Source: Geodermatophilus obscurus DSM 43160
Lineage (GTDB): Bacteria; Actinomycetota; Actinomycetes; Mycobacteriales; Geodermatophilaceae
DNA length: 64,000 nt
Direction of reading: 5' to 3'
NCBI RefSeq assembly: GCF_000025345.1
Contig: NC_013757.1
Location: 2,542,001-2,606,000, forward strand
Positions 2,180-12,867 of this stretch are shown piece after piece; positions within the stretch are counted from its first letter, which is position 1, and every line of letters starts with the position of its first letter. The notes under the pieces were generated by a model that worked only from the letters and a program-made list of their open reading frames with translations, was not told the DNA's origin and made no database searches. The translations under genes were made by a program, and so were the position numbers.

Positions 2180-3364
2180 TCACGGCCGGTCTAGGTCCTC
2201 GATCCGCGCCGTCGACGGGCCCCGCACGGCGGCGGCGGAGCGGGACACGGCCTCGGCCTCCCGGAGCACCCGCAGGACGTTCCCGCCGACCAGCTTGACG
2301 CAGTCGTCCTGGCTCCAGCCGCGGCCGAGCAGCTCGGCGACCAGCGCGGGGTAGCAGGCGACGTCGTCCAGGCCGTCGGGGACGTCGTCGGTCCCGTCGT
2401 AGTCCCCGCCGATGCCGACGTGGTCGATGCCGGCCACCGTGCGCACGTGCTCGACGTGGTCGGCCACCTCGGCGAGCGACGCGCGCGGCCGCGGGTGCTC
2501 GGCGGCGTACTCGGCGCCCACCGTGGCACGGACCCCGGCGTCCCGCGGGTCGAGCCCCCGCCGCTCCACCTCGGTCCGGAGTCCGAGGGCCCAGGCGCGG
2601 CACCGTGGCGACACGAAGTCCGGGACGAACGTCACCATGCACACCCCGCCGTTGGCGGCCAGCCGGCGGAGCAGGTCGTCCGGGACGTTCCGCGGGGAGT
2701 CGCAGACGGCGCGGGCTCCCGAGTGGGAGAAGACGACCGGTGCCTCCGCGACCGCCAGGACGTCGCGCGCCGTGTCGGCCGCCACGTGGGAGAGGTCGAC
2801 CAGCATCCCGAGCCGGTGCATCTCGCGCACCACCTCGCGACCGAACGGGCTCAGCCCACCGATCGCGGGGACGTCGGTCGCCGAGTCCGCCCAGGGCACG
2901 TTCACGTTGTGCGTCAGCGTCAGGTAGCGGACACCGAGCCGGTGCAGCACCCGGAGGACGCCCAGCGAGTTCGCGATGGAGTGGCCGCCCTCGGCGCCGA
3001 GCAGCGAGGCGATCCGGCCGCGGGCGAAGGCGGCCGCCACGTCGTCGGCTCCGAGTGCGAGCTCCAGGTCGTCCGGGTGGGCGCGGATCATCCGGTGGAC
3101 GAGGTCGACCTGCTCCAGCGTGGCGGCCACCGCCGAGTCGCCCTGCAGCGTGCCCGGGACGTAGACCGACCAGAACTGGCCGCCGACCCCGCCGCGCCGC
3201 AACCGCGGCAGGTCGGTCTGCGTCCCCGGCACGGGGCCCGCGAGGTCCAGCCGGTCCAGGTCGCCTCCGAACCGGGTGCGCAGAGCCCACGGCAGGTCGT
3301 TGTGGCCGTCGACCAAGGGGTGCCGGCGCAGCAGGGCGTGGGCCGTGGCGAGGTGACCGGTCAT
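2180..3364 (-). CDS. Membrane-dipeptidase family (M19) peptidase
   Basis: A 394-residue zinc peptidase of the renal dipeptidase family (M19). The N-terminal metal motif [10 protein letters not shown] supplies His20 and Asp22, the bridging glutamate sits in [10 protein letters not shown], and further ligands are in VDLSHVA and [17 protein letters not shown] near the C-terminus is also characteristic. These enzymes cleave dipeptides, including some with D-residues, and some act on beta-lactams. No signal peptide is visible, so the protein is probably cytoplasmic. It lies six bases downstream of the LytTR regulator on the same strand and is probably co-transcribed with it. It converges on the SDR operon. 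Family assignment is strong; the physiological peptide is unknown. Confidence 0.9.
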
Positions 3365-3370
3365 CCCGCC

Positions 3371-4807
3371 CTACAGACCGAGCGCCTGGCGGACGTACGG
3401 GATGTGGCGGCGGGCCACCGGGACGGTCTCCCGGGGTCGGGTGTCCGTGGCGAGGAAGAGCGCCCCCTTGAACCCCTGCTCGATCTCCCGCACCCGGCCG
3501 AGGTTGACCAGGAACCGGCGGTGCACGCGCATGAACCCCTTGCCCCCCAGTTCCTGTTCGAGGCGGTCCAGCCCCCGGGCGACGGCCAGGAGCCGTCCCT
3601 GGTCGCTGGTCAGCCAGACGTTGTTGTGGTCGACCTCGGCGAAGCGGATCTCGCGGGGGTCGAGGAGGACCCATCGGTCGTCGCGCAGCGCGATGACCCG
3701 GTCCCGGTACGGGCGCGGCTCGGCGGAGCGGGGTCCGGGCTCGTCCAGGGGTTCCCCGGAGCCGGCCGGGTCGGGAGGCCCGAATGCGAGGAGCGCGCCG
3801 AGCACCTGGGAGCCGTCGAACACGGGGCGGACCGCGACCGAGACGGGGGTGTCGAGGAAGGGCACGTAGACCAGGGTCGATCCGCTCCAGCACGGGTCCT
3901 GCCGGGCTCGTTCGGTCGCCCGGCGGGCCAGCTGCGGCAGCGCGCGGACTTGCGGGGTCCACCGGTGCGCCGGAGCGCAGGCCGGGGTGTCGGCGGGGGT
4001 GCCCAGCAGGACGGCGGCCTCCCCGTTGGCGAGCACGACCTTCCCCGCCGTGTCGACGGCGGCGAGCGGCGTCGCGGGGGGCACCCGGGCGTCGGCGAGC
4101 GCGGCCGCCAGCAGGGTGCCCGTGTGGTGCGCCCGCCGCCGCAGCTTGGCCTCGGTGGACGCGGCGACCGTGTGCAGCCACGGCAGCACCGCGTCGGACA
4201 ACGGCGTCTGCCAGCAGGAGATCTGCAGCGCGCCGAGCGGATCGCGGGTGACGACGTCGCGCACCGCGACACCGGCGCTGCTCCAGTGGTGGAACCCCTG
4301 GCACCAGTGCTCGGGTCCCCGCACCAGGACGGGACGGTGGCTCTCCAGCGCGGTGCCGGTGCCGTTGGTGCCGCTCGCCCACTCCGACCAGGCCGACCAG
4401 GCCGCGAGGTTGTGGTCCTCGGCCAGGTGGAGCACCCGCCGGCTGCCCCAGGACGCCAGGACCCGCCCGTCGGAGTCGGCCACCGTCACGAGGCCGTCGA
4501 GGCCGTCGACCTCGCCCGCGGCGCGGGCGGCCAGGCCCCCGAGCTCGGCGAACACCACGTCGTGCTCCATCGAGTGCGCGGTCCCCGCGGCCGCGGCGGG
4601 CGCCCGGTCCAGGTCCGGGTCGACCTCGTACTGCTCGCGGCACCGGTACCAGGACATGAGGATCTCGGGACGGACCCCGTGGACGGTGTCCGCTCCGGCG
4701 GCGAACCGTTCCCGCGCGGCGCTGACCCGCTCGAGGCCGTCGTCGGGGGACGCCGCTCCGCTCGCCGCGGCTGACGCACCGTTCGTCGTGTCTTTCGCGC
4801 CGTTCAT
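3371..4807 (-). CDS. AcoR-like sensor fused to a LytTR DNA-binding domain
   Basis: A 478-residue regulator. The first ~270 residues resemble the sensory part of AcoR-type activators: an opening helix followed by RPEILMSWYRC, then a GAF-like region with SEWASGTNGTGTALESHRPV and LGALQISCWQTP. The C-terminal ~110 residues are a LytTR domain, including RFAEVDHNNVWLTSDQGRLL and KGFMRVHRRFLVNLGRVREI. AcoR itself has a sigma-54 ATPase plus Fis HTH instead, and neither is present here. The gene is divergent from the alcohol-oxidation operon starting at 4941, with 133 bp between, so it probably controls that operon in response to an alcohol, aldehyde or acetoin-like signal. The target is inferred from position only. 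Confidence 0.8.
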   Translation of the reverse strand: MNGAKDTTNGASAAASGAASPDDGLERVSAARERFAAGADTVHGVRPEILMSWYRCREQYEVDPDLDRAPAAAAGTAHSMEHDVVFAELGGLAARAAGEVDGLDGLVTVADSDGRVLASWGSRRVLHLAEDHNLAAWSAWSEWASGTNGTGTALESHRPVLVRGPEHWCQGFHHWSSAGVAVRDVVTRDPLGALQISCWQTPLSDAVLPWLHTVAASTEAKLRRRAHHTGTLLAAALADARVPPATPLAAVDTAGKVVLANGEAAVLLGTPADTPACAPAHRWTPQVRALPQLARRATERARQDPCWSGSTLVYVPFLDTPVSVAVRPVFDGSQVLGALLAFGPPDPAGSGEPLDEPGPRSAEPRPYRDRVIALRDDRWVLLDPREIRFAEVDHNNVWLTSDQGRLLAVARGLDRLEQELGGKGFMRVHRRFLVNLGRVREIEQGFKGALFLATDTRPRETVPVARRHIPYVRQALGL

Positions 4808-4940: not shown

Positions 4941-6194
4941 GTGCAGGCGGTGGTCTACCGGAGGCCCTTCGAGGTGGCGGTGGAGGAGGTCCCCGACCCC
5001 CGGATCGAGCAGCCGAACGACGTGATCGTGCGGATCACCTCGACGTGCATCTGCGGAGCCGACCTGTGCGCGTACGAGGGACGGGCGGGCGCCGAGCCGG
5101 GTGCCGTGTTCGGCCACGAGAACCTCGGCATCGTGGAGGAGGTCGGCGCCGGCGTCTCCGCCCTGGAGCAGGGCGACCGCGTCGTGATGCCGTTCACGGT
5201 GGCCTGCGGCTCCTGCCGGAACTGCCGGGCGGGCGCCACCGGCTCCTGCCTCACCGCCGCCTGGGCCGGCCGGGGGGCCGGCGCGTACGGCAGCGTCGCC
5301 CCGGCCCCGACCCCGTCCGCCGGCGGCCAGGCGGAGTACCTGCGGGTCCCCCACGCGGACCTCAACTGCCTGCCGCTGCCCGCCGGCACCGAGCACGAGT
5401 CCGACTACGTGCTGCTCTCCGAGGTCTTCCCCACCGGGTACCACGGCTGCCGCCTAGCCAGCGTCTCGCCTGGGGAGACCGTCGCGGTCTACGGCGCCGG
5501 GCCGGTGGGGTTGATGGCCGCGTACTGCGCGCTGCTCTGCGGCGCGTCACGGGTGTTCGTCGTCGACTGCGCACCCGAACGACTGGCCAGGGCGCGGGAC
5601 ATCGGAGCCGTCGCCGTGGACTCCTCCGCCGGTGACCCGGCGCAGCAGATCGAGGACCTGACCGGCGGTGAGGGCACCGACGCGGGCGTGGACACCGTCG
5701 GGTTCCCGGTCCCCTCCGGGACCGGGGACGGCGCGGAGCCCGCGGCCGTGCTCGACCAGCTCGTGCGCACGGTGCGGCCGACCGGCGGGCTCGGCGTCCC
5801 CGGCCCGTGCGTGCGCTGTGGACCTGACGGCGTCGGCGGGCACGCCGGGCCCGGCACGCTGCTCGTCGCGATGGACACGCTGGTCGAGAAGGGCCTGCGC
5901 CTGGGCACCGGCCGGGCGGACGTCAGGCGCTACGACCGGCAGCTGCGGGACCTGATCACCGAGGGCCGGGCCAGGCCTGGCTTCGTGGTGTCCCACGAGC
6001 TGCCGCTCGTCGAGGCCCCGGACGCGTACCGGGAGGCCGACCAGCGCGTCGACGGCTACACGAAGGTCGTGCTCCGACCCGGTGCGCCTGGTCGTCGCGC
6101 CGCTGCAGCAGTCCAGGGGAGAGGAGGTGGCATGGCCACCCAGGCGCCGACCGAGCGGGATGCGGCGGGACGTCGTCCGGGGGCCTGGCCGTGA
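4941..6194 (+). CDS. Zinc-dependent dehydrogenase, glutathione-independent formaldehyde dehydrogenase type
   Basis: A 417-residue MDR enzyme of the FdhA/threonine-dehydrogenase-like branch. Cys38 (CICGAD) and His59-Glu60 (GHEN) are catalytic zinc ligands; ACGSCRNCRAGATGSC supplies the structural zinc cysteines. YGAGPVGLMAAY is the Rossmann loop and VVDCAPERL places an aspartate that favours NAD. Family members oxidise formaldehyde or other short aldehydes without glutathione. The start is GTG at 4941, behind a G-rich Shine-Dalgarno region (GGGAGGGG). It is the first gene of the PQQ operon, so it probably handles the aldehyde made by the PQQ dehydrogenase. The last ~40 residues are a low-complexity tail beyond the usual fold. 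Confidence 0.85.
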   Translation: MQAVVYRRPFEVAVEEVPDPRIEQPNDVIVRITSTCICGADLCAYEGRAGAEPGAVFGHENLGIVEEVGAGVSALEQGDRVVMPFTVACGSCRNCRAGATGSCLTAAWAGRGAGAYGSVAPAPTPSAGGQAEYLRVPHADLNCLPLPAGTEHESDYVLLSEVFPTGYHGCRLASVSPGETVAVYGAGPVGLMAAYCALLCGASRVFVVDCAPERLARARDIGAVAVDSSAGDPAQQIEDLTGGEGTDAGVDTVGFPVPSGTGDGAEPAAVLDQLVRTVRPTGGLGVPGPCVRCGPDGVGGHAGPGTLLVAMDTLVEKGLRLGTGRADVRRYDRQLRDLITEGRARPGFVVSHELPLVEAPDAYREADQRVDGYTKVVLRPGAPGRRAAAAVQGRGGGMATQAPTERDAAGRRPGAWP

Positions 6195-6267: not shown

Positions 6268-6732
6268 ATGACGACCACCGCATCGGAGCGATCCGCGGCG
6301 CTGAGCGAGCTCGGGTTGGACGGGCAGAACCAGGCGACGATCGGTCGGCTGCTGGCCACGGGGAACATCGGACACGCCGAGGAGGGCGACGGCGGCCGGA
6401 TGCGCGCCCGGATCCGGATCGTGCCCGACCAGCTGATCTGGGACCCCTCGGTCCTCGTCCTGCCCCGTGGGGGGCACCTGGACATCGAGTTCGTCAACGA
6501 CGACCAGAACACGCACTGCGCGCTCGTGCCGTCCAACGGTGACAGCAAGTGGATGTGGTTGCCGAACTACTCGCGCGGGACCATGACCGTCACCCTCGAC
6601 GGCCCTGGTTACTACTGGTTCAGCTCCAACATCGGCAACGACGAGGGCCGGGGCCTGATCGGGGCGATCGTCGTGAGGGGCGACGTCCCGGAGTCGGCAC
6701 GCCTCGACCGCCCGCAGCAGCCCCGACCGTAG
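6268..6732 (+). CDS. Cupredoxin-like protein associated with a PQQ dehydrogenase
   Basis: A 154-residue protein whose second half has the beta-strand pattern of a cupredoxin: VLPRGGHLDIEFVNDD, NTHCALV and GYYWFSSNIG. It resembles small actinobacterial proteins encoded beside PQQ dehydrogenases (MSMEG_3727 type, from memory). The usual type-1 copper loop (Tyr-x-Phe-x-Cys ... His ... Met) is degenerate: residues 119-130 read SSNIGNDEGRGL, with no Cys, His or Met, although His83 is kept. No signal peptide or membrane segment is visible. AGGAGGG lies just before ATG 6268. The PQQ dehydrogenase begins 14 bases after its stop, so the two should be made together. It may be a structural or electron-transfer partner; its role is unproven. 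Confidence 0.75.
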   Translation: MTTTASERSAALSELGLDGQNQATIGRLLATGNIGHAEEGDGGRMRARIRIVPDQLIWDPSVLVLPRGGHLDIEFVNDDQNTHCALVPSNGDSKWMWLPNYSRGTMTVTLDGPGYYWFSSNIGNDEGRGLIGAIVVRGDVPESARLDRPQQPRP

Positions 6733-6746
6733 ACAGGACTGAGTTC

Positions 6747-8477
6747 ATGACCGACATCCAGGACAAGACCGGGATCGAGTACGGAGAGGCCCCGCCGGCA
6801 GTCGACTTCGGGTCGCTGACCACCGCGCCCGGGAACGCGCCGCCCGTGGTCCAGGACGTGACGTACGAGCGCATCCTCGACGCCCGATCGGAACCGCAGA
6901 ACTGGCTCACCTACTACGGCGCCTACGACGGGCAGCGGTACAGCCCGCTCGACCAGATCAACAGGGAGAACGTCGTCCGCCTCACCCCGGCCTGGGTGTT
7001 CAGCTTCTCGCCCCACGGGCTGCACGCCGGCCAGTCGACGTACGCCTTCGAGACCAGCCCGATCATCGTCGAGGGCGTCATGTACGTCTCCGGGTGGGAC
7101 GGCTGGGTCTGGGCGCTCGACGCCAAGACCGGGCAGCTGCTGTGGCAGTACAAGCACGCGATCCCCTTCGACGTCTCGCTGTGCTGCGGCAACGTCAACC
7201 GCGGGGTCGCCGTGGCGAAGGGCAAGGTCTTCGTCTGCACGCTCAACGCCCACGTGCTCGCGCTGGACGCCGCCACCGGTGAGTGCATCTGGGACGTCAC
7301 CAGCGGGGACGTCCGCGCCGGGGAGAGCCTCACGGTGGCCCCGCTCGTCGTGAAGGACCGGGTCGTCGTCGGCAGCTCCGGCGGGGAGTTCGGGGTGCGC
7401 GGCCACCTCGACGCCTACGACATGGAGACCGGGGAGCGGATGTGGCGCTGCTACACGATCCCCAAGCCCGGCGAGCCGGGCTCGGAGACCTGGCCGCAGG
7501 ACGGTGAGGCCTGGGCGCGGGGCGGCGGCAACTGCTGGGTCACCGGGACCTTCGACCCGGAGACGAACCTCCTGTACTGGGGGACCGGCAACCCCGCGCC
7601 CGACTTCGACGGGGAGGTCCGACCGGGGGACAACCTCTACACCGACAGCGTGATCGCGGTGGACGCCGACACCGGGGAGATCCGTTGGCACTACCAGTGC
7701 ACCCCTCACGACCTGTGGGACTACGACTCGAACATGGAGTGCATCCTGTTCGAGGAGGACGGGCGCAAGCTCCTGGCCCACTTCGACAAGAACGGGTACT
7801 GCTTCGTCCTGGACCGCACCACCGGCGAGCGGGTGCGGATTTTCCCCTTCGTCGACCGGATCACCTGGGGTGAGATCAGCCCCGACGGCACGGTGACGCC
7901 CAGGATCTACCCGGACAAGGAAGGCGAGGAGGTGCACTTCCACCCGGGGCCGGCCGGGGCCAAGGAGTGGACCCACGCGTCGTACAGCCCCAGGACGGGC
8001 CTGTTCTACGTCCCGGTGCAGGACACCGGCGCGAAGGTCGCCCGCCGGCGCCGGGAGTTCAAGGAGAGCATCCCCTACTGGGGCGCGGCGGTCACCGTGG
8101 ACGCCGAGGACATGGCCGGGTCGGTGACGGCGTTCAACGCCTCCGGTGAGGAGGTGTGGCGCTGGCGCAACGACCTGCCGATGTGCGCGTCGGTGCTCAG
8201 CACGGCGGGCGACGTGGTCTTCGCCGGCACGCCGTCCGGCACGTTCGTGGCCCTCGACGCCCGCAGCGGCGAGTTCCTGTGGCAGTTCAACTGCGGCAGC
8301 GGCCACCACAGCAGCCCGAGCACCTACAGCGTCGAGGGCAAGCAGTACATCGCCGTGCCGGTCGGCTGGGGCGCCTGGGTCGAGGGGTTCCTGCCCGGGA
8401 TGATGGGCGGCCCCCACGGACAGGCGATGTTCGTCTTCTCGCTGCCCGAGGACATCGACTCGGCCGGGGGGAGGTGA
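6747..8477 (+). CDS. PQQ-dependent alcohol dehydrogenase with lanthanide-type Asp-Tyr-Asp motif
   Basis: A 576-residue eight-bladed quinoprotein with repeated tryptophan-docking motifs. Adjacent Cys146-Cys147 (SLCCGNV) form the disulfide that stacks on PQQ. By homology to methanol dehydrogenase, Glu214 (GGEFGVRG), Asn282 (GTGNPAP) and catalytic Asp325 bind the metal. Asp327, two residues on (WDYD), is the extra ligand that marks lanthanide-dependent XoxF/ExaF enzymes; calcium enzymes have alanine there. It oxidises methanol or another primary alcohol to the aldehyde. ATG at 6747 is chosen because the longer frame only reads through the cupredoxin gene. No Sec or Tat signal is present, unusual for a family that normally works outside the membrane. 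Confidence 0.92.
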   Translation: MTDIQDKTGIEYGEAPPAVDFGSLTTAPGNAPPVVQDVTYERILDARSEPQNWLTYYGAYDGQRYSPLDQINRENVVRLTPAWVFSFSPHGLHAGQSTYAFETSPIIVEGVMYVSGWDGWVWALDAKTGQLLWQYKHAIPFDVSLCCGNVNRGVAVAKGKVFVCTLNAHVLALDAATGECIWDVTSGDVRAGESLTVAPLVVKDRVVVGSSGGEFGVRGHLDAYDMETGERMWRCYTIPKPGEPGSETWPQDGEAWARGGGNCWVTGTFDPETNLLYWGTGNPAPDFDGEVRPGDNLYTDSVIAVDADTGEIRWHYQCTPHDLWDYDSNMECILFEEDGRKLLAHFDKNGYCFVLDRTTGERVRIFPFVDRITWGEISPDGTVTPRIYPDKEGEEVHFHPGPAGAKEWTHASYSPRTGLFYVPVQDTGAKVARRRREFKESIPYWGAAVTVDAEDMAGSVTAFNASGEEVWRWRNDLPMCASVLSTAGDVVFAGTPSGTFVALDARSGEFLWQFNCGSGHHSSPSTYSVEGKQYIAVPVGWGAWVEGFLPGMMGGPHGQAMFVFSLPEDIDSAGGR

Positions 8478-8482
8478 CCGTG

Positions 8483-8605
8483 ATGGACCAGGAGCTCCGT
8501 GTCTCCCCGCTCTGCGCAGACGAGTGGGAGGCCCCCTCCTTCGAGGAGATCCGGGTGTCCGCTGAGGCGACCGCGTACATGGGCGTCCAGGAGGACTGGG
8601 ACTAG
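8483..8605 (+). CDS. pqqA: PQQ precursor peptide PqqA
   Basis: A 40-residue peptide. Its second half matches the PqqA pattern Trp-x2-Pro-x-Phe-x3-Arg-x3-Glu-x-Thr-x-Tyr: Trp15, Pro18, Phe20, Arg24, Glu28, Thr30 and Tyr32. Glu28 and Tyr32 (EATAY) are the residues that PqqE cross-links and that become the PQQ skeleton. ATG at 8483 lies five bases after the dehydrogenase stop; GTG codons at 8474 and 8480 are in frame and possible. The acidic tail after Tyr32 (MGVQEDWD) is longer than in many PqqA peptides. A strong hairpin separates it from pqqB. Identity is supported both by the motif and by the intact pqqBCDE genes that follow. Confidence 0.93.
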   Translation: MDQELRVSPLCADEWEAPSFEEIRVSAEATAYMGVQEDWD

Positions 8606-8710: not shown

Positions 8711-9613
8711 ATGTGGGTGCGGGTGCTGGGCTCGGCGGCGGGAGGCGGCTACCCGCAGTGGAACTGCGCCTGCCCCCCGTGCCGCGCGGTGCGCGACGGG
8801 TCCCGGCCGGCCCGCCCGCGCACCCAGTCGTCGATCGCGGTGAGCGCGGACCGCCGGCGGTGGTTCCTGCTCAACGCCTCACCGGACATCCGTGCCCAGA
8901 TCGAGTCCTTCCCCGCGCTGCACCCCGCCAGCGGCCCCGACGGCGCCCGGGTGGTCCCGCTGCAGGCCGTGCTGCTCACCGACGCCGAGCTGGACCACAC
9001 GCTCGGGCTGCTGCTGCTCCGCGAGGGGGGAGGCCTCGTCCTGCACGCCACCGAGGCGACCCACGACACGCTGCGCCAGGGGACGTCGCTGCTCCGCACC
9101 CTGGAGGCCTACTGCCCGGTCGAGTGGCGACCGGTCGTGCCGGGGGTGGACGTGCCGCTGGCCGACGGGCTGTCCTACCGGGCCTTCGACGTCCCGACGA
9201 CCAAGCGCGCCCGGTTCCGCTCCGGTTCTCGCGAGGGGCGGGTCGTCGGCTACCGCCTCACCGACGAGCGCAGCGGCCGGGCGCTGGTCCACCTGCCGGT
9301 GCTGCAGGAGCTGACGCCGGAGGTGCGGAACGAGCTCGACGGCTGCTGCCTGCTCGTCGACGGCACCTGCTGGTCCGACGACGAGCTGATCCGGCTCGGC
9401 CTGGCCGGCCGGACGGCACGCGAGATGGGGCACCTGCCGATCAGCGGTCCCGGGGGCAGTCTCGAGCAGCTCGCCCGGCTGCCCGTCGAGCGCCGGATCT
9501 ACGTCCACGTCAACAACACCAACCCGATCCTCCTCGAGGACGCGCCCGAGCGGCGCACCGTCGAGGAGCACGGCATGGAGGTCGCCGTGGACGGGCTCGA
9601 ACTGGAGGTGTGA
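8711..9613 (+). CDS. pqqB: PQQ biosynthesis protein PqqB
   Basis: A 300-residue metallo-beta-lactamase-fold protein. The N-terminus RVLGSAAGGGYPQWNCACPPC is the PqqB hallmark, with the zinc-binding cysteine cluster. LLTDAELDHTLGLLLLREG replaces the usual HxHxDH motif, as is normal in PqqB. PqqB is an iron-dependent hydroxylase thought to modify the tyrosine of the cross-linked Glu-Tyr intermediate before PqqC acts. Length is close to the family norm of about 300. ATG at 8711 has a distant GGGAGGG upstream. The stop is followed within nine bases by the pqqC start. Cytoplasmic; co-transcribed with pqqCDE. Confidence 0.95.
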   Translation: MWVRVLGSAAGGGYPQWNCACPPCRAVRDGSRPARPRTQSSIAVSADRRRWFLLNASPDIRAQIESFPALHPASGPDGARVVPLQAVLLTDAELDHTLGLLLLREGGGLVLHATEATHDTLRQGTSLLRTLEAYCPVEWRPVVPGVDVPLADGLSYRAFDVPTTKRARFRSGSREGRVVGYRLTDERSGRALVHLPVLQELTPEVRNELDGCCLLVDGTCWSDDELIRLGLAGRTAREMGHLPISGPGGSLEQLARLPVERRIYVHVNNTNPILLEDAPERRTVEEHGMEVAVDGLELEV

Positions 9614-9621
9614 GGCCCCTC

Positions 9622-10320
9622 ATGACGCTGACCGCGACGGCGACCGACGAGTTCGTGGCCGCGCTGCGCGAGCAGTCCCGCCGCTACCACGACCAGCACC
9701 CCTTCTCCCGCAGGATGAACGAGGGGGAGCTGGGCCGGGAGCAGATCCGCTGCTGGGTGACCAACCGGTTCGCCTACCAGGCAGCCATCCCGCGCAAGGA
9801 CGCCGCGATCCTCGCCAACTGCCCCGACCGGCAGGTGCGCCGCCGCTGGATCCGCCGCATCCACGACCACGACGGCACCGCCGACGGCGAGGGTGGCATC
9901 GAGGCGTGGCTGCGGCTCGGCGAGGCGGTCGGCCTGGGCCGGGAGGAGATGGAGGACCAGCGGCACGTCGTCCCGGGCGTGCGGTTCGCCGTCGACGCCT
10001 ACGTCACCTTCGCCCGCACCCGGCCGTGGGTCGAGGCGGTGGCCTCCTCGCTGACCGAGCTCTTCGCGCCGGACCTGATGGCCGAGCGCCTCGCCGCCTT
10101 CGAGCGCCACTACACCTGGATCGACCCGCAGGGGCTGGCCTACTTCCGGGCCCGCCTGACGCAGGCGCCCCGCGACTCCGCACACGCCCTGGAGGTGGTG
10201 ACGGAGCACTGCCGGACGCCGGGGACCCAGGCGGCCGCCCTGGCGGCCCTGTCCTTCAAGTGCGACGTCCTCTGGAGCATGCTCGATGCGATCGACCGCG
10301 CCTGTGCAGACCGCCAGTAG
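9622..10320 (+). CDS. pqqC: Pyrroloquinoline-quinone synthase PqqC
   Basis: A 232-residue all-helical haem-oxygenase-fold oxidase that catalyses the last step of PQQ formation: ring closure and an eight-electron oxidation using oxygen without a metal. Typical segments are RRYHDQHPFSRRMNEGEL, RCWVTNRFAYQAAIPRKDA and RIHDHDG. ATG at 9622 is preferred because GGAGG at 9604-9608 is a usable distance upstream; an in-frame GTG at 9610 lies almost on that site. The 3' end overlaps pqqD by 35 bases. Family length is around 230-250. Conserved lysines and histidines expected around the active site are present. Confidence 0.95.
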   Translation: MTLTATATDEFVAALREQSRRYHDQHPFSRRMNEGELGREQIRCWVTNRFAYQAAIPRKDAAILANCPDRQVRRRWIRRIHDHDGTADGEGGIEAWLRLGEAVGLGREEMEDQRHVVPGVRFAVDAYVTFARTRPWVEAVASSLTELFAPDLMAERLAAFERHYTWIDPQGLAYFRARLTQAPRDSAHALEVVTEHCRTPGTQAAALAALSFKCDVLWSMLDAIDRACADRQ

Positions 10321-10612
10321 TGCCGACCGCCCCCGGCTGGCCCGCTCCGTCCGGCTGAGGTTCGACCCGGCACGCGAGCGGCACGTGCTGCTGACGCCGG
10401 AGGCGGTCACCGTCCTCAACGGCACGGGGGCGGCCGTCCTGGAGCTGTGCGACGGGCGGCGGACGGTGACCGAGATCGTGGCCAAGCTGCGCGGGCGGTA
10501 CGACCGCGTGGACGACGACGAGGTGCGCGCCTTCGTCGACCGCCTCACCGCCCGGCGGTGGCTCGAGGTCGGGAACGCGGAGGCCGGTCGTGGACAGGCC
10601 CGTCGTGGCTAG
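10286..10612 (+). CDS. pqqD: PqqA-binding chaperone PqqD
   Basis: A 108-residue protein of the RiPP-recognition-element fold. It binds the PqqA peptide and presents it to PqqE. The core RPRLARSVRLRFDPARERHVLLTPE followed by LNGTGAAVLELCDGRRTVTEI is diagnostic. ATG at 10286 lies inside the end of pqqC; a later in-frame GTG at 10304 is possible and would trim six residues. It overlaps pqqE by 23 bases, so pqqC, pqqD and pqqE are tightly coupled. PqqD is separate here rather than fused to PqqC or PqqE as in some bacteria. Confidence 0.93.
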   Translation: MRSTAPVQTASSADRPRLARSVRLRFDPARERHVLLTPEAVTVLNGTGAAVLELCDGRRTVTEIVAKLRGRYDRVDDDEVRAFVDRLTARRWLEVGNAEAGRGQARRG

Positions 10613-11717
10613 CCCGGCCGTGGACCGGCCGTTCGGCCTGCTGGCCGAGCTGACCTACGGCTGCCCGTTGCACTGCTCCTACTGCTCCAACCCGATCGAC
10701 CTGGCCGCCCACACCGACGAGCTGACCACGGCGGAGTGGCAGCGGGTGCTGGTCGAGGCCCGCGACCTCGGCGTGCTGCAGCTGCACCTCTCCGGCGGTG
10801 AGCCGCTGCTGCGCCGCGATCTCCCCGAGATCGTCCGGTGCGCCGGTGAGCTGGGCCTGTACACCAACCTGATCACCAGCGCCCTCGGGTTGACGCCCCG
10901 CCGCGCGGAGGAGCTGCTGGCCGCAGGCCTCGACCACGTGCAGATCAGCCTCCAGGCCGACGAGGCCGCCTTGTCCGACCGCCTCGCCGGGGTGCGGTCG
11001 TTCGAGCGCAAGCTGGTCGCCGCCCGGCTGGTGAAGGAGCTGGGCTGGCCGCTCACGCTGAACGTCGTCCTGCACCGGCACAACGTCGACCGGGTCGCCA
11101 GCATCCTCGACCTGGCCGAGCAGCTGGGGGCCGACCGGATCGAGCTGGCCCACACGCAGTACTACGGGTGGGCCCTGCGCAACCGCGACGGGCTCCTGCC
11201 GAGCAGGGCGCAGCTGGAGCGCGCCCAGGACGTGGTGCGGGCGGCGCGCGAGCGCCTGCAGGGGCGCATGGAGGTCATCTACGTGCTGCCCGACTACCAC
11301 AGCCGCTACCCCAAACCCTGCATGGGGGGCTGGGGCACGCGCCAGCTCACCGTGGTGCCCGACGGCGACGTCCTCCCGTGCCCCACGGCGCACACCCTCC
11401 CGCTTCCCCGGGCGAGCGTCCGCGAGCACCCCCTGGCGTGGATCTGGGAGCGGTCACCGCTGTTCCAGCGCTTCCGCGGAACGGACTGGATGCCCGATCC
11501 CTGCCGCAGCTGCGACCGCCGCGAGCTCGACTTCGGCGGCTGCCGCTGCCAGGCCTTCCAGCTCACCGGCGACGCCGCCCGCACCGACCCGGTCTGCCAC
11601 CTCTCGCCCGACCACGGCCTCGTGGCCGAGGCGGTGGCCGCCGCCGACGAGGAGGCGCGGTCGGGTGCGGCGGCGCTGACCCCGCGGCGGTACCCCGCCG
11701 CCGGGCGCAGCCGGTGA
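10590..11717 (+). CDS. pqqE: PqqA peptide cyclase PqqE (radical SAM)
   Basis: A 375-residue radical SAM/SPASM enzyme. Cys25, Cys29 and Cys32 (CPLHCSYC) bind the catalytic 4Fe-4S cluster, and LHLSGGEPLLR is the SAM-binding GGE motif. The C-terminal SPASM region has CMGGWG, then CRSCDRRELDFGGCRCQA and a final Cys in DPVCHLSPDH, which hold auxiliary clusters. It forms the carbon-carbon bond between Glu28 and Tyr32 of PqqA, using PqqD as chaperone. The start is GTG at 10590, inside pqqD. The transporter gene begins 53 bases downstream, so it may belong to the same transcript. Confidence 0.95.
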   Translation: MDRPVVASPAVDRPFGLLAELTYGCPLHCSYCSNPIDLAAHTDELTTAEWQRVLVEARDLGVLQLHLSGGEPLLRRDLPEIVRCAGELGLYTNLITSALGLTPRRAEELLAAGLDHVQISLQADEAALSDRLAGVRSFERKLVAARLVKELGWPLTLNVVLHRHNVDRVASILDLAEQLGADRIELAHTQYYGWALRNRDGLLPSRAQLERAQDVVRAARERLQGRMEVIYVLPDYHSRYPKPCMGGWGTRQLTVVPDGDVLPCPTAHTLPLPRASVREHPLAWIWERSPLFQRFRGTDWMPDPCRSCDRRELDFGGCRCQAFQLTGDAARTDPVCHLSPDHGLVAEAVAAADEEARSGAAALTPRRYPAAGRSR

Positions 11718-11769: not shown

Positions 11770-12867
11770 ATGACCTCGGTGTTCGTCTTCATCTCCGGGG
11801 CGACCCTGCTGGTGGTCAGCGCGGAGAAGCTCATCACCCACCTCGTCGGGGCGGCCAGTGGTCTCCGGATCCCGCTGTTCCTGCTGGCCATCGTCTTCAC
11901 CGGTGTCGAGTTCGACGACATCGCGCTCGGCGTCGGGCTGAACCTCGAGGAGCTCAGCGGTGTCGCGCTCGGCGTCGTGTTCGGGACGGCGCTCTCCTTC
12001 ACCGGCGTCGTCCTGGCGGTCGCCGCGATCGTCCGGCCGAGCGTCGTCGACATCCCGCGCGACTACCTCGTCGTGTTCGCCGCCGCCCCGCTGGTGATGG
12101 TCGCGTTCACGCTCATCGGGCCGCTGACGGTCACCGACGGACTGCTGCTCCTCGGTCTGTTCGTCCTGTTCATCGGCTACGTCGCCGCCCGGGAGCTCCG
12201 CAGGAGCGTCGCGGTCTTCCGCGACGAGGAGGTGTGCGAGGCCGCCGTCGCCGAGGTCGGGGACGGCACGCCTCCCCGACGCGGGGCGGACACGCACGTG
12301 CTGCAGGACCAGCCGGCCGGGGCAGCAGCACGGCCCGGCGCTGAGCGGACGCAGCAGGTCGTCGACGAGCCCCGCGCCGAGCCGAGCGAGCTGCCCGCCG
12401 GCTGGGCCCACCTCGGACTGGCGGTGGTCGCACTCGCCGGACTCATCGTCGGCGCGGCGACCGTGAGCACCGGGACCGAGGGGATCCTGGAGACCTACGG
12501 GCTCGAGGGCACGGTGTTCGGCGCCACCATCGTCACCGCCGTGCTCACCATGGAGGACGTCTTCCTGACGGTGGAGCCCTTCCGGAGGGGCGTGCCGGAG
12601 ATCGGGGTCGGGAACGTCATCGGCAGCGTCGTCTTCTCGGTCACCGGGAAGCTGGGCATCACCCTCCTGGCCGGCGGCATCGTCGTCGGCTCGGACGTGT
12701 TCACCTGGCACCTGCCCGCGCTCGTCGTCCTCACCGCGCTGGCTGCGTACCTCCTCTCCACCGGCCGGCTGACGCGGTGGCACGGCTGCATCCTCCTGGC
12801 GCTCTACGTCGTGTACTGGTTGGTCAGCCTGGTCGCGTTCGGCGAGGTCCCGGTCGAGATGGACTGA
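11770..12867 (+). CDS. CaCA-family cation exchanger (sodium/calcium exchanger type)
   Basis: A 365-residue membrane protein of about ten predicted helices in two halves joined by an acidic, proline-rich loop (about residues 155-215). The halves carry divergent alpha repeats: FTGVEFDDIALGVGLNLEE in the first, and MEDVFLTVEPFRRGVPEIGVGNVIGS in the second. Family members exchange Ca2+ for Na+ or H+. The first repeat differs from the usual GTSLPEL, so ion choice may differ. A GGAGGAG Shine-Dalgarno precedes ATG 11770. It follows pqqE closely on the same strand, which is suggestive because PQQ dehydrogenases need Ca2+ or lanthanide; a role in metal supply is only inference. Confidence 0.75.
   Translation: MTSVFVFISGATLLVVSAEKLITHLVGAASGLRIPLFLLAIVFTGVEFDDIALGVGLNLEELSGVALGVVFGTALSFTGVVLAVAAIVRPSVVDIPRDYLVVFAAAPLVMVAFTLIGPLTVTDGLLLLGLFVLFIGYVAARELRRSVAVFRDEEVCEAAVAEVGDGTPPRRGADTHVLQDQPAGAAARPGAERTQQVVDEPRAEPSELPAGWAHLGLAVVALAGLIVGAATVSTGTEGILETYGLEGTVFGATIVTAVLTMEDVFLTVEPFRRGVPEIGVGNVIGSVVFSVTGKLGITLLAGGIVVGSDVFTWHLPALVVLTALAAYLLSTGRLTRWHGCILLALYVVYWLVSLVAFGEVPVEMD

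Follow-up and report, generated by a model that had tools for sequence, protein, structure and literature searches.

A PQQ alcohol dehydrogenase of Geodermatophilus obscurus with a lanthanide signature and no export signal: a probable cytoplasmic lineage in actinobacteria

A stretch of 64,000 nucleotides from the genome of the soil actinobacterium Geodermatophilus obscurus DSM 43160 (contig NC_013757.1, positions 2,542,001 to 2,606,000; referred to as the window) was analysed around a gene for a pyrroloquinoline quinone (PQQ) dehydrogenase at window positions 6747-8477. The encoded enzyme probably belongs to an actinobacterial lineage of lanthanide-PQQ alcohol dehydrogenases that work in the cytoplasm; location and metal are what we infer. 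Its family, a catalytic set with an extra Asp, the lack of a signal in all assessable members and the gene linkages were read directly from the sequence: the enzyme is accompanied by complete or partial sets of pqq genes, by a signal-less protein of predicted cupredoxin fold and usually by one of two unrelated transporters. The alternation of these transporters, of the Na/Ca-exchanger and MntP families, beside a PQQ cassette is new here. The dehydrogenase gene and the codons that matter to the argument are as follows.

6747-8477 (+): PQQ methanol/ethanol-family dehydrogenase, 576 residues, no export signal (TIGR03075, 632.3 bits)
7182-7187 (+): vicinal Cys146-Cys147 (Cys in 78/79 rows, the remaining row being a gap)
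7386-7388 (+): Glu214, metal ligand position (alignment of clade and controls)
7590-7592 (+): Asn282, metal ligand position (Asn in 79/79 rows and in 27/28 loci of the order sample, with one Asp)
7719-7727 (+): Asp325 (catalytic base), Tyr326 and Asp327 (extra lanthanide-ligand Asp; 79/79 and 28/28)

The product translated from the ATG at 6747 exceeded the curated cut-off of TIGR03075 (480.05 bits) and is a member of that family. It carries the catalytic Glu, Asn and Asp of these enzymes together with the vicinal Cys pair, which we take to be the disulfide ring of PQQ dehydrogenases, and begins with the polar N-terminus MTDIQDKTGIEYGEAPPAVDFG. The closest solved structure by sequence was PedH (6zcv, 1.9e-116), followed by ExaA, a quinohemoprotein and XoxF. 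An AlphaFold2 model built from 35 sequences (predicted local distance difference test, pLDDT, 76.8; predicted template modelling score 0.85) was compared by Foldseek, and ranks 1-5 were taken by PedH (two entries) and then lanthanide methanol dehydrogenases (three).

Relatives were collected by scanning genomes with an aligned set of the partner protein described below. The best 80 of 194 were kept, so that the sample leans to close relatives, and 78 of the 80 stretches reached the dehydrogenase (L052 and L069 stop short of the enzyme; L074 is truncated by the end of its contig). In one of them (L097, Pseudonocardia sp. CNS-004) the dehydrogenase reads in three pieces, through either an error in the draft sequence or decay of the gene; this row was counted for Asp325 and Asp327 and excluded for the N-terminus, which leaves 78 assessable N-termini among the 79 clade rows (window plus 78 relatives). 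A second, evenly drawn sample of the order was taken independently of the best 80, with which it overlaps in species; the partner protein was found over the cut-off in 29 of its 397 genomes, the window's included, second copies in five genomes being outside this count.

Both Asp residues were conserved throughout the clade, and Cys146, Cys147 and Glu214 in all rows except L097, where the broken frame leaves a gap; the 28 other loci of the order sample all kept the two Asp and the two Cys. The initial annotation of the gene, which had been made from sequence alone and had read WDYD at residues 324-327 with an Asp two residues past the catalytic one, was borne out by translation, and the alignment that it proposed at positions 214, 282, 325 and 327 gave Glu, Asn, Asp and Asp across the clade. 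In the control alignment, position 327 separated lanthanide enzymes (XoxF, WDYD; PedH, WDFD) from Ca enzymes (MxaF, WDYA; ExaA, WDFS; qhADH, WDYT). The extra Asp of lanthanide-dependent PQQ alcohol dehydrogenases is present, and the lanthanide signature noted earlier stands; the enzyme groups with neither XoxF nor PedH.

This second point was taken from quick trees with support from the Shimodaira-Hasegawa-like approximate likelihood ratio test (SH-aLRT) only. The 16 sampled clade members shared a single branch (SH-aLRT 99) that belongs neither to the XoxF/MxaF nor to the ExaA/PedH group, so the enzyme looks like a lanthanide alcohol dehydrogenase yet falls in neither named subfamily tested. 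Membership of XoxF was rejected, as 6dam and plasmid homologues make up another clade, and membership of the PedH group likewise, as the clade is separate in the quick tree; ExaF itself lay outside the sequence set. The control tree has long branches (Skermanella, L111, Alteromonas and others), and its placement of Skermanella with the clade is for that reason not relied upon. A homologue on Alteromonas macleodii plasmid pTE101a (L136) lacks the Cys pair, reads WDWA and is followed by the gene of a Rieske protein.

PedH, the lanthanide-dependent ethanol dehydrogenase of Pseudomonas putida (6zcv/6zcw, the first two Foldseek matches), shares fold, catalytic set, extra Asp and Cys pair with the window enzyme, from which it differs in clade and at 38% identity; it is described as part of a periplasmic system (PMC6839425). 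XoxF, the lanthanide-dependent methanol dehydrogenase (6dam, 4mae, 6fkw), is alike in fold and shares WDYD with the window enzyme in 6dam, yet forms a separate clade. Among the homologues that group with 6dam, those of three annotated plasmid loci carry a signal, and their genes adjoin genes for cytochrome c and substrate-binding proteins, neither of which was seen at the window locus. No xoxG (cytochrome c) or xoxJ was found among the window neighbours searched, and none was recognised with 10 of the 80 loci taken as the starting set.

Export signals were judged by 15-residue Kyte-Doolittle means, a simple search for the twin-arginine translocation (Tat) motif and inspection by eye. By hydropathy and motif the dehydrogenase lacks the Sec or Tat signal of exported quinoproteins, as had first been proposed, and its relatives do likewise: a hydrophobic N-terminus was absent from 78/78 assessable clade rows (maximum mean before the catalytic domain 1.12) and from 28/28 loci of the order sample (maximum 0.94), whereas 11/11 annotated proteobacterial homologues reached 1.57-2.07 within residues 1-45, with an AxA site in nine and a lipoprotein-like Cys in the other two. 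Eight other actinobacterial PQQ-type frames (L108, L110, L111, L113, L115 and L117-L119) had hydrophobic, lipoprotein-like or Tat-like N-termini by eye. In place of a signal the clade carries a conserved segment, EYVDAGxAVxxxxLSxxxGxAPPVA (consensus of 35 rows). The absence of a signal is common to the assessable relatives from several actinobacterial families; chance or a local oddity was rejected on the 79-row clade and the 28-locus order sample.

A wrongly assigned start that hides a real signal peptide is scarcely credible. The window frame is open back to a stop at 6540, and an upstream in-frame start encoding a signal, named at the outset as the finding that would overturn the proposal, was looked for in the window and in related strains without success. 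The only in-frame ATG, GTG, TTG or CTG codons are GTG 6549, GTG 6555 and CTG 6615, all within the preceding gene's own coding frame (6268-6732), and the extension translates into an Arg/Pro-rich segment unlike a signal. For 20 of 77 relatives the assigned start is preceded by a stop codon at a distance of eight codons or fewer, and a hidden signal is impossible in those 20. Matches to a simple RR motif were confined to L020-L022, within the part shared with the previous gene, and a Tat signal was rejected.

Cysteine content leans towards a reducing compartment, that is, the cytoplasm. Clade members contain 7.8 cysteines on average (range 4-12; 11 in the window enzyme), and the number is odd in 26/77; after residue 30, all ten proteobacterial homologues shorter than 630 residues have two or four, and two longer ones five and four. 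This sign is supportive rather than decisive, because other types of exported PQQ enzyme from actinobacteria reach six or seven.

Action outside the membrane after export without a signal of its own, by Tat hitch-hiking with a partner or by type VII secretion, is a reading to which we give little credence. The type VII secretion motif is Yxxx[DE]; it was absent from the first 40 residues in 78/78 rows and matched at the C-terminus in 1/77 only, so that a type VII signal was rejected. The obvious hitch-hiking partner, the small protein encoded next door, has no signal-like N-terminus in any of the 80 loci, and the conserved neighbours of 10 loci, whose N-termini were not tested individually, included no recognisable gene for an exported partner. 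The high and often odd cysteine count also speaks against this route. In its favour are the conserved vicinal Cys pair and the periplasmic action of lanthanide enzymes elsewhere (PMC11845868). The two possibilities offered in the initial annotation, a cytoplasmic PQQ enzyme or non-standard export, are as a pair supported by the lack of signals across families and by the lean of the cysteines; the idea of an isolated oddity is not, as the gene is one member of a cassette of the MSMEG_3726/3727 type.

This cassette, defined by a TIGR04339 protein beside a TIGR03075 enzyme and pqq genes, was recognised in the window with the gene order partner, dehydrogenase, pqqA, B, C, D, E. The cupredoxin-fold partner, pqqA-E and the alternating cation transporters were absent from the initial annotation. 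The neighbouring features are listed here.

3371-4807 (-): divergent regulator with LytTR DNA-binding domain (PF04397, 56.7 bits), a conserved neighbour
4941-6194 (+): zinc alcohol dehydrogenase (PF08240/PF00107), association uncertain (match in 9/80 loci)
6268-6732 (+): MSMEG_3727-family PQQ-associated protein, 154 residues, no signal, predicted cupredoxin fold (TIGR04339, 287.7 bits; PF23509, 265.7 bits)
8483-8605 (+): pqqA precursor peptide, 40 residues (PF08042, TIGR02107)
8711-9613 (+): pqqB (TIGR02108, 380.8 bits)
9622-10320 (+): pqqC (TIGR02111, 327.3 bits)
10286-10612 (+): pqqD (TIGR03859, 84.1 bits)
10590-11717 (+): pqqE (TIGR02109, 528.5 bits)
11770-12867 (+): Na/Ca-exchanger-family membrane protein (PF01699, 95.7 bits); other cassettes carry an MntP-family protein

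The order from partner to pqqE is widely conserved, the pqq genes being inverted or missing from the examined stretch in some loci; the zinc alcohol dehydrogenase lies upstream in a minority of cassettes.

The partner protein was modelled with AlphaFold2 from 47 sequences (pLDDT 80.7), and the predicted model has a cupredoxin fold: auracyanin was the first Foldseek match, and comparison with the Cu(I)-binding domains of CopA and CupA by VIA-align gave Z 13.8 and 13.3 with root-mean-square deviations of 2.3 and 2.0 over 98 and 96 residues, a comparison that spans partner residues 34-139 and barely covers residues 1-33 and 140-154. The type-1 copper-ligand Cys sits in the loop between the last two cupredoxin strands. 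This loop, placed from predicted strands 114-119 and 131-136, has no Cys at residues 117-131 in 47/47 sequences, so the protein lacks that ligand and probably does not carry electrons by type-1 copper. It differs in this from auracyanin, CupA and pseudoazurin, whose fold it is predicted to share; it has Asn124-Asp125-Glu126 in the loop, and its conserved Cys84 (46/47) lies elsewhere, beside His83. His83, Ser120 and the Asn-Asp-Glu triplet are each invariant (47/47), and the protein may have a structural or hard-metal-handling role. The maximum hydropathy of its N-terminus was 1.03 over the 80 loci, in none of which it was hydrophobic, and the frame is closed at most eight codons upstream in 22 of them.

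For the transporters, 65 loci with full flanks (at least 4.5 kb upstream and at least 7 kb downstream) were counted: 26 carry an exchanger only, 29 an MntP-family protein only, none both and 10 neither. Among all 80 loci the numbers are 28, 35, one (L057, with a 26% match to the exchanger) and 16. Examples of the swap are the MntP-family genes at L071:13606-14163 (-) and L060:6440-6982 (+) against the exchanger gene of the window. Exchanger matches lie downstream of the cassette in 29/29 cases and MntP matches in 34/36. On the dehydrogenase tree, in which 23 of 73 inner branches are starred, the 64 labelled rows require at least 11 switches between the two families, at least five of them forced by starred branches; L057, L062, L066 and L075 (the last three with short flanks) and nine tree rows with neither transporter stand outside this count. 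Shuffled labels gave a mean of 21.3 switches, so the trait is also clustered on the tree. That two unrelated families replace each other points to a shared need to move a cation. In the 10 loci with neither, frames judged by eye gave nothing consistent as a third transporter. One membrane frame, L046:3-1175 (-), about 7 kb from such a cassette, reads by eye like an Nramp-type metal transporter.

The same neighbours bear on a second explanation, by which a cytoplasmic PQQ dehydrogenase uses Ca2+ or another divalent ion and Asp327 is an ancestral leftover. The exchanger and MntP families are classically Ca2+ and Mn2+ transporters, and the Asp rule is an extrapolation for this lineage, both of which favour it. 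Exchangers of these families usually export Ca2+/Mn2+, however, and a cytoplasmic Ca enzyme would thereby be starved; Asp327 is moreover kept in every row of both samples, whereas the control Ca enzymes lack it. We consider use of Ca2+ distinctly unlikely.

KatG (catalase-peroxidase) is encoded near the cassette in 38 of the 65 full-flank loci, the window locus not among them, and a LytTR-regulator-like frame in 46, a few by weak matches at 31-37% identity. On the tree the katG linkage changes twice over 68 rows (41 with, 27 without) and counts as nearly one event. KatG was downgraded as a general part of the cassette on its near-single origin, its lack of linkage in the window genome and the match in L026, which at 7 kb is possibly due to chance. 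In one large sub-clade, as at L082:5548-7791 (+), katG has the LytTR regulator on one side and the PQQ cassette on the other, which hints that H2O2 is produced close to the enzyme. The only katG match of the window genome, a single contig of 5,322,497 bases, is at C1:2014779-2016905 (L171) and has one in-frame TAG inside the matched stretch.

The PqqC reaction yields H2O2, and transporters, katG and regulator might all belong to PQQ production, with its PqqC-derived H2O2 and stray redox cycling, rather than to metal supply. The frequent linkage of katG fits this explanation; the interchange of unrelated transporter families, exclusive in the full-flank loci and repeated on the tree, points towards a need for a cation. 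A role confined to PQQ production is thus unlikely.

For the cytoplasmic lanthanide enzyme that we favour, the following mechanism is proposed. PQQ would be made in the cytoplasm and inserted into the enzyme there, and Ln3+ would be held by Glu214, Asn282, Asp325 and Asp327. Cytoplasmic Ca2+ is low, which could help the lanthanide to win the metal site; the exchanger- or MntP-family protein would bring the needed cation in or drive competing Ca2+/Mn2+ out. The cupredoxin-fold protein could act as a structural partner or in the loading of metal or PQQ, rather than in carrying electrons by copper. Diffusible alcohols would be oxidised to aldehydes and PQQH2 re-oxidised by some acceptor in the cytoplasm or the inner membrane; in the sub-clade with katG, part of the electrons may pass to O2 and yield H2O2. 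Mycofactocin is encoded in the window genome (TIGR03962, 652.5 bits) and is one candidate electron sink among several. A broader proposal, that the clade is a third, phylum-wide cytoplasmic lineage of lanthanide enzymes with a repeatedly recruited transporter (Ln3+ in, or Ca2+/Mn2+ kept low) and an acidic-loop cupredoxin-fold protein that handles hard metal, is possible and is put forward tentatively.

Several observations weigh against a cytoplasmic lanthanide enzyme. The Asp rule predicts lanthanide use without proving it, and in Foldseek quinohemoprotein and Ca-type enzymes score close behind the lanthanide enzymes. Model confidence falls below 50 in two segments of the dehydrogenase, residues 284-289 and, surrounding the Cys pair, 141-149. 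That pair, a disulfide in exported relatives, is kept in every assessable row; exported PQQ enzymes of other actinobacterial types (L108, L110, L111, L113) have 6-7 cysteines, 3/77 clade members hold just four, and lineage may explain the counts in part. No electron acceptor came to light for the enzyme, and no cytochrome c was recognised among the neighbour families shared by at least six other loci (10 of the 80 loci serving as the starting set). The position of the transporter gene is not constant, two of 36 MntP genes being upstream and the orientation varying, and 10 of 65 full-flank loci have neither transporter. The katG linkage is a near-single event, and the katG of the window genome itself lies about 530 kb away.

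The cassette itself is already known. The MSMEG_3726/MSMEG_3727 cassette of Mycobacterium smegmatis has a small protein of the same family (TIGR04339), and the two were likened by family and description. Haft (2011; PMC3023750) gives MSMEG_3726 as the lone PQQ alcohol dehydrogenase of M. smegmatis and places it, as in the window, within the cassette for PQQ biosynthesis; metal, location and transporter linkage are not discussed in the passages of that account covered here. For actinobacteria, PQQ production on methanol, metagenomic Pseudonocardia genes for PQQ methanol dehydrogenases and, from one isolate, a xoxF5-like amplicon possibly acquired by lateral transfer have been reported (PMC5606694, whose actinobacterial isolates are Arthrobacter). 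The methanotrophic Mycobacterium of PMC12366331 is reported to be without a PQQ methanol dehydrogenase, the covered passages of PMC10875860 contain nothing on the location of actinobacterial XoxF, and PMC10409515 and PMC11931723 provided general background only. No work on actinobacterial PQQ alcohol dehydrogenases that lack a signal or act in the cytoplasm was recognised from titles and the starts of abstracts, a search that left preprints and most subscription journals uncovered; within the same scope, the metal and location of the cassette enzyme and the transporter swap were not found described.

The lack of a signal in this enzyme and in the actinobacterial relatives analysed suggests that enzymes of the rare-earth type can act within the cell. 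Should this be true, rare earths would gain a job there, bacteria would have a reason to take them across the cytoplasmic membrane, and Gram-positive bacteria would enter lanthanide biology; to our knowledge a lanthanide-dependent enzyme on the inner side of that membrane would be the first of its kind. The clade concerned includes Streptomyces, Amycolatopsis, Pseudonocardia, Saccharopolyspora, Geodermatophilus and Rubrobacter. A puzzle may also be touched: a mycofactocin mutant of M. smegmatis does not grow on ethanol despite MSMEG_3721-3727, the PQQ cassette that it carries (PMC6529628). If its enzyme needs a lanthanide that is missing from the medium, La3+ should, by conjecture, rescue the mutant on ethanol.

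Besides the genera just named, cassette hosts include Kineosporia, Micromonospora and others, and the nearest named relatives are Geodermatophilus. The partner was found over the cut-off in 11 of 396 genomes of a phylum sample and a TIGR03075 dehydrogenase in 9 of 396, all nine among the 11. In a class-wide sample 2/394 genomes had the partner, the window's included, and the cassette is thus sparse outside some families. Two copies of the partner gene, perhaps two cassettes, are present in five genomes of the order sample (G942, G978, G1013, G1025, G1096) and one of the phylum sample (G371). A large linear plasmid of Streptomyces sp. NBC_01483 (L129, 1.56 Mb) carries the enzyme at 75% identity, so that the gene can be plasmid-borne. 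A gene for an M19-type dipeptidase (window 2180-3364, -) adjoins the regulator gene, and does so in six of the eight Geodermatophilus/Blastococcus loci L020-L027.

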